Below are positions 55,666-59,859 of a DNA stretch of 64,000 nucleotides, in pieces; positions within the stretch are counted from its first letter, which is position 1, and each line of letters begins with the position of its first letter. The translations under genes and the position numbers were made by a program. Origin of the DNA: Psychroflexus maritimus (GTDB lineage: Bacteria; Bacteroidota; Bacteroidia; Flavobacteriales; Flavobacteriaceae); the NCBI RefSeq assembly GCF_011089875.1, contig NZ_JAANAS010000039.1, positions 62,001 to 126,000 of the forward strand, read 5' to 3'. Below the pieces are notes generated by a model. The model was not told the origin of the DNA and made no database searches. It was given only the letters and a program-made list of their open reading frames with translations.

Positions 55666-56334
55666 TTAAAAAGAGTTTTCTCTTTTTATGAGCCAATTTT
55701 TAAAAGAATGGAAGTTTTGGGGACTAACGCCATGTCCTACAGGAAATTCTTCGTAAAGAAAATCAATGTTCAGGTCTTTGAGTATAGTTTGATTTTTTCT
55801 AGCCCAATCAACGGGAATGACTTGGTCTGCACTTCCATGAGAATTATACACGCCTAAATGATTAAATTTTCTAGATGGATAGTCGCCTTCAACTAAACTT
55901 AAGTCGATGTAGCCACTTAAACCTATCACATTTTTAAATTTTTGAGGTTCAGACAAAGCTAAAGCAAAACTCAAAATACAACCTTGTGAAAATCCGAGTA
56001 GGTTAATGTTTTGTTCGTCTATAGGATAATGAGCTACAGCTTCATCAATAAATTGACTGATTTTGTTTCTTGAGTCAATGCCTTCTTCAGTGTTACTAAA
56101 TTTATCTCCCGCAGCATTAAAATCAATAGAATACCATGCATTGCCACCAAAACCTAAAGATAGAGGAGCTTCAGCAGAAATAACAATGTATTCTTTAGGG
56201 AGCTCACTGGCAAAAGAAAATAAATCTTCTTTGTTGCTTCCATATCCGTGAAGCATTAAAATTAAAGGTGATGTTACAGCATCAGTTTGTGCAGGTCTTA
56301 TTAAATGGTCTAAGCTAAGGTTTTTTGTTGTCAT
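55666..56334 (-). CDS. Alpha/beta-hydrolase, phospholipase/carboxylesterase family
   Basis: The 222-residue protein has the complete triad: Ser116 in GFSQG, Asp170 in HGSADQVIP and His201 in PVGHGVSP. The oxyanion segment LMLHGYGSNKEDL opens the fold. Similar to bacterial carboxylesterase or acyl-protein thioesterase-like enzymes (YpfH/EstB), it probably cleaves short esters. It is the last gene of an operon with BatA-like, dihydroorotase-like and membrane genes, and overlaps the upstream gene by 20 bp. Confidence 0.93.
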   Translation of the reverse strand: MTTKNLSLDHLIRPAQTDAVTSPLILMLHGYGSNKEDLFSFASELPKEYIVISAEAPLSLGFGGNAWYSIDFNAAGDKFSNTEEGIDSRNKISQFIDEAVAHYPIDEQNINLLGFSQGCILSFALALSEPQKFKNVIGLSGYIDLSLVEGDYPSRKFNHLGVYNSHGSADQVIPVDWARKNQTILKDLNIDFLYEEFPVGHGVSPQNFHSFKNWLIKRENSF

Positions 56335-56692
56335 TAGTGAAAGCTAATTTTTGAAAAAATTTTTGAAAAAAGTTACCGACAAGAGGAATTAAAGTTTTTT
56401 TACCACTCACAGCACCAATAAACGCGTAAATCCAAAGTATGAAATAACACAAATAAAAAGCTGAACCTACCATAAAATTCATGCTATCAGAGAAGTATTC
56501 TCCAAATCCATTGACTAAAATTCCAAAAAGAATAAGCGTTAAATTAATTCCTAGGGCTTGTCTTATGTGAAAATTAGCAAATTTGCTCTTGGTTTCAGAA
56601 TTTAGAAACATGGCTAAAATAGTTCCAAAAATGGTTAAGTAAGCAACAATTGCTGGTGTTTTACCAGCTTTTTCGGGTTCGGGCATTTTCAT
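56315..56692 (-). CDS. Small membrane protein (DUF4870-like)
   Basis: The protein has 125 residues with about three membrane helices (about 14-30, 50-66 and 72-95). A conserved FANFHIRQALGINLTLILFGIL segment resembles the DUF4870/Tic20-like group of small integral proteins; in Bacteroidota they are often called import component proteins without evidence. Its start overlaps the dihydroorotase-like stop by one base (TAATG) and its end overlaps the esterase start, so it is tightly coupled. The function is unknown. Confidence 0.75.
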   Translation of the reverse strand: MKMPEPEKAGKTPAIVAYLTIFGTILAMFLNSETKSKFANFHIRQALGINLTLILFGILVNGFGEYFSDSMNFMVGSAFYLCYFILWIYAFIGAVSGKKTLIPLVGNFFQKFFQKLAFTNDNKKP

Positions 56693-57927
56693 TAATAAAA
56701 GTTTTGAATTACTTTACCAAGTAAATTTTCATTTAAGAAAATTGAATTTTTTGATTTCGAGGTAATTTCGTTTTTAGTAAAACACCACTCTAGCTTTGGA
56801 TTAATAAGGTTCATGGCTATTTCATTTCCTTCCTTAATTACAGGTTTATTCAAATTATAAACATCTCTAGAACGCTGAATAATTTCAAGTGATTTTTCGG
56901 TTCCAAATAAAGTATTCATGGCTCCAAAATAACTTTCTAAACCAATGCTTCCGCTAGTAGCATGTTCAAATTCAAGAAATTTGTGCTCAATGTTAATCGG
57001 TCTGTGGTGTGAAGTTACAAAATCAATAGTACCATCTAAAACTCCAGAAATTAGGGCTTCTTGATCAACTTTTTCGCGCAATGGCGGAAAAAGTTTGAAG
57101 TTGGTATCAAATTCGTTCAAGCGTTCATCGGTAAAAAATAATTGATTAATAGATACACTACACGAAACATTTAGCCCATCTTCTTTAGCATTGTTGATTA
57201 ATTTTACAGCTTCTTTTGTTGAAATCAATGGAATATGTAATCTTCCTCCGGTATATTTCAAGATGGCTAAATCTCTTGAAATTTGAAGTGTTTCAGCTAA
57301 GCTTGGAGCAGCCTTTAAGCCTAATAGAGTAGATGTAGGACTTTCATGAACTTGGGCTTTACCTAGAATGTTTTTTTCAGCAGGAAAAGAATGTACCAAC
57401 CCATTAAACGATTGAGTGTATTGTAATGCCAGTTTCATTAAGTTGGCATTTTGAATAGGGGAATCATCATCGCTAAAACCAATTGCCCCATAGTTATGCA
57501 TTTCGAATAATTCAGCTAAATCTTCACCTTTTAAACCTTGGGTTAATGCTGAAACAAGATGAATTTTTACTTTTGAATTCCTAGTTTTTTGTTGCAGATT
57601 TTCAATTAAATAAGCTTGGTCTATAACAGGTTGCGTAGAAGCTACAAGTGCAATTTCAGAAAATCCTGATTCAGCAGCTACTTTTAAACCATTAGTAATT
57701 GTTTCGCGTTCTTCAAAACCTGGTTCTCCAAAATGTACATTAGGATCAAAAAAAGCGGGGCTTAAAACTAAATCATTAGCTTCATAAATTTCATAGGTTT
57801 CTTTCTTAGAAAGGTCTTTATCAATTTTTAAAATCTTGTTGCCTTCTAGTAATACATCCCTAATTTGCTTATGGAATGGACTTGAAACATCAAGAATTTG
57901 AACAGCTTTTAGTAGCGTTTTCATCAA
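56692..57927 (-). CDS. Dihydroorotase-like protein lacking key catalytic residues
   Basis: The 411-residue protein belongs to the type-III dihydroorotase/amidohydrolase family by length and overall pattern (ITNGLKVAAESGF, GAIGFSDDDSPI, KLFPPLREKVD, and a C-terminal metal-side domain). However, the first metal motif DxHVHxREPG reads DPNVHFGEPG (Asn63 for His, Gly67 for the substrate Arg), the VTPHHL motif reads SVSINQL, and the catalytic TDHAPH motif reads TSHHRPI (Ser for Asp at 306). His65, His179 and His231 remain. It is unlikely to be an active dihydroorotase; pseudo-enzymes of this kind can serve as structural partners of aspartate transcarbamoylase. It starts at the base after batA stops. 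Confidence 0.9.
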   Translation of the reverse strand: MMKTLLKAVQILDVSSPFHKQIRDVLLEGNKILKIDKDLSKKETYEIYEANDLVLSPAFFDPNVHFGEPGFEERETITNGLKVAAESGFSEIALVASTQPVIDQAYLIENLQQKTRNSKVKIHLVSALTQGLKGEDLAELFEMHNYGAIGFSDDDSPIQNANLMKLALQYTQSFNGLVHSFPAEKNILGKAQVHESPTSTLLGLKAAPSLAETLQISRDLAILKYTGGRLHIPLISTKEAVKLINNAKEDGLNVSCSVSINQLFFTDERLNEFDTNFKLFPPLREKVDQEALISGVLDGTIDFVTSHHRPINIEHKFLEFEHATSGSIGLESYFGAMNTLFGTEKSLEIIQRSRDVYNLNKPVIKEGNEIAMNLINPKLEWCFTKNEITSKSKNSIFLNENLLGKVIQNFY

Positions 57928-59859
57928 TTAAGGTTTAAAATAATTTAAAAGTAATACTTCTACTAGTAAAAATATAAGCGCAAAAATAAGAAACCAATGC
58001 CAAAAACTTTTTGTTTCTTGTTGCTTTCTTAATTCTTCAAACAATCCTTCTATAGATTCGAAAACAGAAGCTTCATTTGAAAATGAATAATAATTTAGTT
58101 GACTTTGATTTCTTTCGTAATTAAAACTTAAGTACTGAAGCGTATCTTGTTGAGCAACAACCGCATAATTACCGGCTATTTCAGGTACTTCGGAAGTACT
58201 TATTTCTACGTACTTTAAATATTTTTGCTGTTGTGGAATTACACGTGTTTTATTGGTGTGTACTAATTCCAAAACTTCGTCAGTTTTAGATGCCCAATCA
58301 ATTTTAATGGAATTGGGTTGTTTCACCGTAAATTGCAATTCGTTTGCTGAACGATTGAGGTTTGCTAAGTTGTAAAAAGTGGGCACAATTAAGGGCGAAT
58401 TTTGAAAATTTGAATTGTTTAAGTTTAAAGCTGCCGTAAAAAGGCTAATCTTGTTTTTACTAATTAGCGCAGGCATTTGATTTGAAAAACTTAAGGCCGA
58501 AGCTGTAGAAAGATTTAATTGGAAGGTTTTTTTGAAATTGGGATAATCAAAATTTGAAATCTCATCAATAAAGGTATTTTTATAAATAGGATGTTGAAAA
58601 TTTATTTTCGTTAACTGAATTTCATCATCAATTGTTTTTTCCAACTTTGGTAGGTTGTATTTAAGCAAAAACTGATTCAGCGAAGCATTGGTTTCTGTTG
58701 AAGGAATAACAATTAAATTTCCGCCTTCATCAAGAAATTTTGAAAGTGCGTTAGTGAAATTATTTGAATAAGTTTTTAGCTCATTCAAAATAACTACATC
58801 CGATTGATTGATTGAAGAATAGGGTAGGTTACTTAAACTATAAGATGAATAGTTGAAATTAGTTTTATTGTAAATACGTTTTAAAAAATCGTCCTCTGTT
58901 TGATTAATGCTAAGTACATTTAGCTTTGAAGGTTGATTGATACTAAAGTAGTAAGTATCATCATAAGTTAAGCCAGCAGATTTTATTTCAATTTTTGATT
59001 TTGGATAGGCTTTCTTACTAATTTTAAAATTTGTAGTAAGCTTGTTTTGGTCTTCAAATTCAACCTGTTTTCTAGCAATAAGTTGGTCTTCATCATAATA
59101 AATAGAAATGTCTATGGGGTTTGAATTAGAGCCTTCAGCAGAAAGCTCTACGTCTAATTCAATTTGGTTTTCTTCCTCTTGATAAAGTGCCTTTTCAATA
59201 CTAATATTTTTAGGTTGTTCAGGTTTTAGTTGAACAAATTCAAGATGTTGGTTCCTGGACAAGTACTCATCAAAGTTCAGCTTTTCAATAGATTGACTTT
59301 GAAAATCTGAAATTAGTAATAGTTTTTTATTTAGGTCATCGGTTTTTGAGAATAAAGTGTTGGATTTTAAAAGCACCTGTTCTAAACTAAGATGCTCGGG
59401 AGCTAGTTTTAAAGAAAGTAATTCGTTAGCTAAGTTTTGATTATTTTTAAGTGTTTCATTATTTGTGAATACGCTTACTTTGGAATCCTCTGGAAGGTAT
59501 TTTACCAGTTCTTGCTGAGCATGTTCAAAAATTGTTTTTGTACCTAATTTTTGTTCCATACTAAAAGAATTATCAAGATAAATTACGTATTCCGTTTCTT
59601 GATTTTCTTCTGTATTTTGATTTGGAAGATAAGGTTGTGCAAAGGCAAAAACTAAAGCGGTTATTGCCAATAGTCTTGACAAGAGAACTAAATATTTTTT
59701 AACAATAGAACTCTTTCTACTCTGAATACTAATTTTTTGGAGCAGAGCAACATTAGTAAATTCAGTTTTTTTAAATTTTCTAAGTTGAAATAAATGAATT
59801 AAAATAGGAATAATCAGTAAAAATAATGCGTAAAGAAACTGAGGGTACTGAAAAGCCAT
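57928..59859 (-). CDS. BatA-domain double-transmembrane protein (VWA-like, aerotolerance family)
   Basis: The protein has 643 residues. The N-terminus is the BatA-type double-membrane domain (MAFQYPQFLYALFLLIIP, helices at about 5-25 and 57-75 with the PYLP turn), then a von Willebrand-like domain with the DNSFSM metal-site motif (VIYLDNSFSMEQ, about 90-101). Further beta domains follow, with one C-terminal membrane helix (about 620-640). Bat proteins were named from Bacteroides aerotolerance; in flavobacteria this form stands apart from the batABCDE operon. It is first of a four-gene operon (BatA-like, dihydroorotase-like, small membrane protein, esterase). Its role is not known. Confidence 0.88.
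   Translation of the reverse strand: MAFQYPQFLYALFLLIIPILIHLFQLRKFKKTEFTNVALLQKISIQSRKSSIVKKYLVLLSRLLAITALVFAFAQPYLPNQNTEENQETEYVIYLDNSFSMEQKLGTKTIFEHAQQELVKYLPEDSKVSVFTNNETLKNNQNLANELLSLKLAPEHLSLEQVLLKSNTLFSKTDDLNKKLLLISDFQSQSIEKLNFDEYLSRNQHLEFVQLKPEQPKNISIEKALYQEEENQIELDVELSAEGSNSNPIDISIYYDEDQLIARKQVEFEDQNKLTTNFKISKKAYPKSKIEIKSAGLTYDDTYYFSINQPSKLNVLSINQTEDDFLKRIYNKTNFNYSSYSLSNLPYSSINQSDVVILNELKTYSNNFTNALSKFLDEGGNLIVIPSTETNASLNQFLLKYNLPKLEKTIDDEIQLTKINFQHPIYKNTFIDEISNFDYPNFKKTFQLNLSTASALSFSNQMPALISKNKISLFTAALNLNNSNFQNSPLIVPTFYNLANLNRSANELQFTVKQPNSIKIDWASKTDEVLELVHTNKTRVIPQQQKYLKYVEISTSEVPEIAGNYAVVAQQDTLQYLSFNYERNQSQLNYYSFSNEASVFESIEGLFEELRKQQETKSFWHWFLIFALIFLLVEVLLLNYFKP

Follow-up and report, generated by a model that had tools for sequence, protein, structure and literature searches.

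A degenerate dihydroorotase of Psychroflexus maritimus, probably a non-catalytic partner of aspartate transcarbamoylase encoded away from pyrB

What does a dihydroorotase (DHOase) homologue that has lost most of its metal ligands do in an operon with a membrane protein and an esterase? The question is raised by a gene of Psychroflexus maritimus, here called pDHO, located in the window (the whole stretch of 64,000 nucleotides that was analysed, to which the positions below refer). The assembly has 2.59 Mb in 126 contigs and is 99.97% complete, and the nearest named relatives found in a contig scan (2 loci) are Flavobacteriaceae MAGs. The gene belongs to the following run:

57928..59859, minus strand: BatA-like protein, 643 aa, directly upstream of pDHO (PF07584 N-terminal domain, E 1.4e-18)
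56692..57927, minus strand: degenerate type I dihydroorotase (pDHO), 410-411 aa, open frame of 411 codons
56315..56692, minus strand: DUF4870-like protein (PF09685 at 22.0 bits, below the cut-off of 25)
55666..56334, minus strand: phospholipase/carboxylesterase-type hydrolase (PF02230), last gene of the run

These four genes are read in one direction with zero intergenic gaps, and the initial annotation was right in placing the frame in an operon with the BatA-like and esterase genes. The listed start is a TTG at 57927, directly after the BatA stop; the next codon, at 57924, is an ATG. This ATG is probably the actual start, hence a protein of 410 aa, with the TTG as the alternative. At the other end, the pDHO stop and the ATG of the DUF4870-like gene overlap as TAATG. 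The BatA-like protein is an operon mate of pDHO, and not its inferred partner.

We looked at the family to which pDHO belongs. Zero Pfam families matched it at E 0.01, and with TIGR00857 (NCBIfam) it reached 265 bits, under the curated threshold of 279.05 for catalytic type I PyrC. Its best solved relatives are the Aquifex DHOase structures (phmmer 1.2e-57). The AF2 model has a mean pLDDT of 96.1 and superposes on the Thermus DHOase (Z 54.8, 1.6 A over 402 residues) and on the Aquifex DHOase of the DHO-ATC complex (3d6n_A; Z 54.2, 2.0 A over 407 residues). Because of this pLDDT and of these Z values of about 54, the modelled protein can be called an intact, full-length type I dihydroorotase fold; a full-length homologue of this type is a feature of the non-catalytic subunit of class A2 aspartate transcarbamoylases (ATCases).

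In the Aquifex DHOase, the alpha-site is described as His61, His63 and Asp153, with Asp305 near, and the beta-site as His180 and His232 (PMC3880350). In our alignment His61, His63, Asp153, His180, His232 and Asp305 correspond to Asn63, His65, Asp154, Phe181, Leu234 and His307 of pDHO, which keeps two of the six metal/catalytic ligands, His65 (His63) and Asp154 (Asp153). The Arg at Aquifex position 65, which is the substrate Arg, is Gly67. The initial annotation had noted that Asn63 replaces the leading His of the HxH pair, Gly67 in place of the substrate Arg and the absence of the VTPHH-type His; the alignment bears out the first two, and comparison with intact relatives the third, SVSINQL occupying the place of their xVTPHHx-type residues. 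Two other assignments had to be revised. The catalytic Asp had been located at Ser306, which in fact sits at the Thr of TDHAPH, Asp305 being aligned with His307; and His179 and His231, taken as remaining family marks, are not ligands, as the beta-site residues His180 and His232 are Phe181 and Leu234. Loss of the beta-site alone means little, because the Aquifex His180/His232 double mutant is reported to retain full activity (PMC3880350). On the alignment, the telling losses in pDHO are those of the His61, Arg65 and Asp305 equivalents: where a catalytic PyrC has the HxH pair and Asp305, pDHO has Asn63, His65 and His307. Even so, ligand loss does not always equal inactivity, because a Zur-regulated PyrC paralogue without zinc residues is reported to be active in the account cited (PMC2770081).

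We then asked how far this degeneration extends. Matches were counted in 37 of 40 near relatives and in 187 of 198 genomes across the phylum, other DHOase paralogues being included in these counts, and loci were fetched for comparison in sets of 80, then 40, then 20. In the 61 degenerate sequences of Bacteroidia, query included, 0, 1, 2, 3 and 4 of the six ligands were kept in 8, 36, 11, 5 and 1 cases, respectively, and none kept both His of HxH. The four degenerate sequences of group f25 kept 0 or 1 ligand and the eight of group f91 kept 0. By comparison, all six ligands were present in each of the 37 sequences of the intact set, composed of 36 from other classes (every DHOase locus fetched there except the four of f25) and L116 of G109, the only intact type I gene encountered within the class. 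One orthologue, L015/L043 (G010:C1:1130060-1131274), carries an in-frame TGA, which may be a sequencing error or a real break; it comes from a single-contig genome of the same genus, and L015 was left out of the ligand table as the stop breaks its frame. In the f91 sequences (L122-L126, L143-L145) the FSDD region has become Wx(L/I)P and no ligand is left, WKLHPPLR is still kept, and BatA is not adjacent.

A quick tree of 95 rows grouped the degenerate sequences in one clade of 56 rows (SH-aLRT 100) beside the intact genes of other classes; the tree has long branches, and where f25, f78 and L117 belong within this clade is uncertain. Nineteen rows had been left out (L015, the L003 paralogue, eight f91 rows and nine close relatives). 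One ancestral loss of the ligands would be the simplest reading of this topology. A long branch within the clade leads to group f25, which by its code belongs to another class; therefore, either the loss predates the class or the copy in f25 was acquired.

Does the genome contain another gene for the dihydroorotase step? A search for another pyrC and for pyrB, proposed in the initial annotation, found a second dihydroorotase of the PRK09236 type and a pyrB, so that the refuting condition named there, the absence of any other pyrC, does not apply. Besides pDHO, P. maritimus has two further dihydroorotase-like genes, L002 and L003. The first one (L002, 1378-2748) is a PRK09236 dihydroorotase (722.5 bits for a cut-off of 535), about 26% identical to pDHO, whose closest solved structure is 2gwn (1e-148), and HFREPG, the Lys of GLKLF, THCED, FHLS and TDHAPH are all present in it. 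In L002 the leading His of HxH is replaced by Gln (DDQVHFREPG), 2gwn of Porphyromonas gingivalis shows the same replacement, and the strict HxH rule seems not to be valid for PRK09236-type dihydroorotases. From these motifs, L002 is likely the working PyrC. As for pyrB, it was found with pyrR adjoining, on contig C30, and pDHO lies on contig C49: the two genes are not linked in this genome.

A total of 295 genomes of the class were searched for pDHO, PyrB, BatA and PyrI (56 and 66 re-examined), and the tally, from lists read by eye, covers the 253 with a completeness of 90% or more and a contamination of 5% or less. A genome was counted as having pDHO on a match at E <= 1e-35 or after inspection of the locus, so that presence in these counts is a matter of sequence similarity, with motifs read in the fetched loci only; a close PyrB was a match at E <= 1e-100, or fragments in G260, G285 and G378. 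pDHO was present in 215 of the 218 genomes with a close PyrB and in 0 of the 11 with PyrI (a twelfth PyrI match, in G067, is a fragment with five stops). Another PyrB was found in 26 genomes: the 11 with PyrI, two of f5, three of f98, G319, eight of f91 and G109. pDHO was seen in 0/2, 0/3, 0/1 and 7/8 of the f5, f98, G319 and f91 genomes, respectively; G272 (f91) was counted as positive in the tally though its region L134 held a PyrC. Nine genomes were without PyrB, and three of these had pDHO (G250, G371 and G424, with no PyrB over the cut-off). G109, with its intact pair, was left out of the two-by-two tables, hence 252 genomes there. As the genomes share ancestry, Fisher values are descriptive only and overstate the association.

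We examined the exceptions, to which G250, G371 and G424 also belong. Among the three genomes with a close PyrB and no pDHO, the BatA gene of G459 and G471 runs into the contig end where pDHO would begin, and G467 is without BatA as well. The three f98 genomes are a real difficulty for the reading of pDHO as a PyrB partner: no pDHO was found in them, and a PyrB is present, on a long branch and 50-51% identical to that of P. maritimus in the two measured (L127, L128). Possibly, the f98 PyrB has become independent of such a partner. A PRK09236-type PyrC was found at E <= 1e-126 in 14/14 genomes checked that are without pDHO but have a PyrI-linked, f5 or G319 PyrB, and the three f98 genomes gave matches of 1e-92 to 4e-13. 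None was found, apart from a spurious match at 7e-5, in G256 or the three genomes of f88; all four are without a credible PyrB, PyrC or pDHO, f88 keeping BatA. In f78, pDHO and PyrB are both divergent, and BatA scores are also low. pDHO is also much less conserved than PyrB, a point against a partnership of the two: its identity to the query ranged from 31 to 50% outside the genus of the query, and that of the close PyrB from 60 to 85%.

The order of genes in other lineages speaks for a link to PyrB. Directly upstream of the intact DHOase lies pyrB in 13 of 37 cases, namely 12 loci of other classes and L116. In all four f25 genomes (L106, L136-L138) the degenerate DHOase overlaps pyrB by 4 bp, and thus a catalytically worn copy has stayed in an operon with pyrB. 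A quick PyrB tree of 51 rows placed the 23 Bacteroidia PyrBs in a clade (SH-aLRT 95) next to 11 PyrBs encoded beside intact DHOases (88). The PyrBs of f25, f91, f98 and f5 fell elsewhere, on longer branches; f25 and f91 have degenerate DHOases, yet their PyrBs are outside the Bacteroidia clade (the f91 PyrB is 47-48% identical to that of P. maritimus in two genomes measured).

Taken together, these results make it probable, by analogy with class A2 ATCases, that pDHO is a non-catalytic partner bracing PyrB, comparable to Pseudomonas PyrC' or Sinorhizobium PyrX but encoded apart from pyrB. We favour this reading because pDHO behaves as a part of pyrimidine synthesis needed only with one kind of PyrB and because class A2 precedents exist. 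The protein would descend from a type I dihydroorotase of the kind found behind pyrB in related classes, the dihydroorotase step being presumably carried out by the separate PRK09236-type PyrC encoded elsewhere in the genome. Its retention would reflect a requirement of PyrB: dimers of pDHO most likely link PyrB trimers into a putative class A2-type dodecamer, and would make or stabilise the active PyrB trimer. Of the two roles considered in the initial annotation, structural or directed to a new substrate, the former gains support from the co-occurrence with PyrB, the exclusion by PyrI, the pyrB-adjacent copies of f25 and the joint absence with the pathway, and the latter is not supported.

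The class A2 precedents are informative both in what they share with pDHO and in what they do not. In P. aeruginosa, PyrC' is reported to be needed for the PyrB trimer and for ATCase activity; like pDHO it is a type I DHOase homologue without zinc ligands, and it is described as lying beside PyrB (PMC7053772). Unlike PyrC', pDHO is not encoded near pyrB in P. maritimus, in most flavobacterial loci it lies behind a BatA-like gene, and its complex with PyrB is a predicted one. Disruption of S. meliloti smc01361 (PyrX), a second and supposedly inactive dihydroorotase, is reported to result in pyrimidine auxotrophy although another PyrC is present (PMC5929573); unlike pDHO, smc01361 adjoins pyrB in the same account, and it belongs to another phylum. 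The Aquifex aeolicus type I DHOase (3d6n, DHO-ATC dodecamer) is among the closest to pDHO in sequence and fold; it differs in being catalytic in the complex, with all six ligands, as described in PMC3880350. The PRK09236-type dihydroorotase (L002; 2gwn) shares with pDHO the amidohydrolase fold, the dihydroorotase annotation and a copy in the P. maritimus genome, but still has the Lys, both His and the Asp that belong to the site, as well as the Arg of HFREPG. Finally, 5nnl, the inactive DHO-like domain of a CAD-like protein, reported as fungal (PMC7053772), is a non-catalytic DHOase fold tied to ATCase, as proposed for pDHO, although it is a domain of a fused protein with a very weak sequence match (7.2e-4). 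As judged from sequence, the class A2 features tested were all found except gene linkage. Zinc and catalytic residues are gone (Asn63, Gly67, Phe181, Leu234, His307), a separate predicted working dihydroorotase exists (L002), and PyrB is present with no PyrI (no TIGR00240 match); a gene next to pyrB, which is usual in known class A2 cases and not part of the definition, was not found in P. maritimus.

As pDHO and PyrI exclude each other in the genomes sampled (0/11 PyrI genomes with pDHO), one could go further and regard pDHO as the regulatory chain of the Bacteroidia ATCase, in place of the PyrI of the E. coli type enzyme. If so, the membrane-protein operon in which pDHO lies would tie the synthesis of pyrimidines to the state of the envelope. 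We consider this extension unlikely: the old active-site pocket is not conserved, and therefore any regulatory ligand must bind elsewhere on pDHO.

Alternatively, pDHO could be an amidohydrolase that is still active, its metal site having changed or its substrate being a new one. In favour of this, pDHO retains the fold and many framework residues, the Aquifex beta-site mutant stays active (PMC3880350, in the account given above), and Gln occupies the first HxH position in the PRK09236-type PyrC and in 2gwn. However, the former site columns drift freely in the degenerate clade (column 61: S18 N8 F8 G5 H4 W4, with others; column 153: G17 D16 F14 Y7, with others; column 305: D40 H9 N5, with others), and no shared substitute metal-ligand set was seen in the alignment, which led us to reject alternative metal ligands. 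The eight f91 members lacking all six ligands and the fact that pDHO tracks PyrB also count against an enzyme, and we regard this explanation as very unlikely.

We next considered whether pDHO works with the BatA-like membrane protein, for example as a soluble subunit. The initial annotation had described a fixed coupling of the two genes. The association is frequent, BatA being directly upstream, and often overlapping, in 39 of 49 degenerate-gene loci, and the two genes co-occur more than by chance. It is not fixed: f91 and f25 loci, which were excluded from the 49-locus set, have no BatA beside the degenerate gene. With a strong BatA match defined as E <= 1e-60 (two genomes without BatA were taken to be G163 and G490), both genes were found in 207 of 252 genomes, BatA only in 10, pDHO only in 19 and neither in 16. 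Thus 19 of 226 pDHO genomes were without a strong BatA and BatA was found in 10 of 26 genomes without pDHO, meaning that pDHO does not occur only with BatA. Discordant genomes for pDHO numbered 29 with BatA, compared with 14 with the close PyrB (n=252): pDHO follows PyrB better than BatA, with exceptions.

Loci that keep BatA where pDHO was not found (f107, f88, G203, G319, G425) lead to the same conclusion. In G199 (L093) the order is BatA, 8 bp, pDHO, 25 bp, DUF4199, glycosyltransferase. In f107 (G359, G386, G479) BatA is followed by the DUF4199-like and glycosyltransferase frames without pDHO (Pfam names from L180), and G359 and G386 have PyrI. A tblastn search of L176 with the pDHO family gave two matches of 17 and 42 residues inside other genes, taken as chance. 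In G203 the order is BatA, about 590 bp, DUF4199, glycosyltransferase; this genome has no PyrB above the cut-off, and its PRK09236-type matches are no stronger than 4.7e-41. In G425 (78% complete, no PyrB found) BatA is followed by dnaX, and its congener G248 has BatA, pDHO, dnaX; in another congener, G319, no pDHO start was found within 304 bp after BatA, and its PyrB, 33% identical to that of P. maritimus, groups with the PyrI-linked PyrBs. Three lineages (f107, G203 and G425) are therefore without pDHO in an otherwise kept BatA neighbourhood. Both the co-occurrence and these loci led us to reject BatA as the main explanation, and a functional pairing with it is highly improbable.

Decay of a gene without function, kept by chance, is extremely unlikely in spite of the damaged catalytic motifs and of the TGA in the G010 orthologue, and was rejected on the high-confidence fold and on purifying selection, which we deduce from a dN of 0.172 and a dS of 1.17 against the closest relative, L005 (dN/dS about 0.15), the 215/218 co-occurrence with the close PyrB and the long open frames across the class adding to this.

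As a probable non-catalytic ATCase partner, pDHO would be a known kind of protein in a new place: it is widespread in Bacteroidia, unlinked from pyrB and in a BatA neighbourhood, and searches of the open PMC library listed no description of a Bacteroidetes pseudo-dihydroorotase. If the reading of pDHO as a brace of PyrB is true, a gene scoring as dihydroorotase across much of the class is half of an ATCase and no enzyme; annotation and metabolic models would have to be corrected (two or three 'PyrC' genes, not all working), a class A2-type ATCase would be placed in Bacteroidia, and there would have been a repeated switch between two holoenzyme builds, with pDHO or with PyrI. It also predicts that loss of this 'second pyrC' would lead to a uracil requirement despite an intact working PyrC.

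Some additional observations were made on the genes compared. The intact DHOase of G109 lies beside a 48% identical PyrB (L116:4486-6840), and its genome has no PRK09236-type match better than L116 itself; this is perhaps a transferred class A1 pair, and G203, a congener, is without both the intact DHOase and the PyrB of that pair. At 11 of the 49 loci a DUF4199-like membrane protein is encoded downstream of pDHO, either within about 40 bp (L064, L066, L068, L070, L071, L088, L093) or one gene further (L062, L065, L067, L080); in most of them a gene for a family 2 glycosyltransferase comes next. The third dihydroorotase-like gene of P. maritimus (L003, 1363-2781; G000:C11:94820-95974, minus) scores 629.5 bits with PRK09236 (cut-off 535), and in it VSDDGLYF replaces the GLKLF stretch that carries the Lys in the paralogue L002. 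Given this change, L003 may be another non-catalytic protein or an altered enzyme, and a related copy, 56% identical, is present in G328 (L130).
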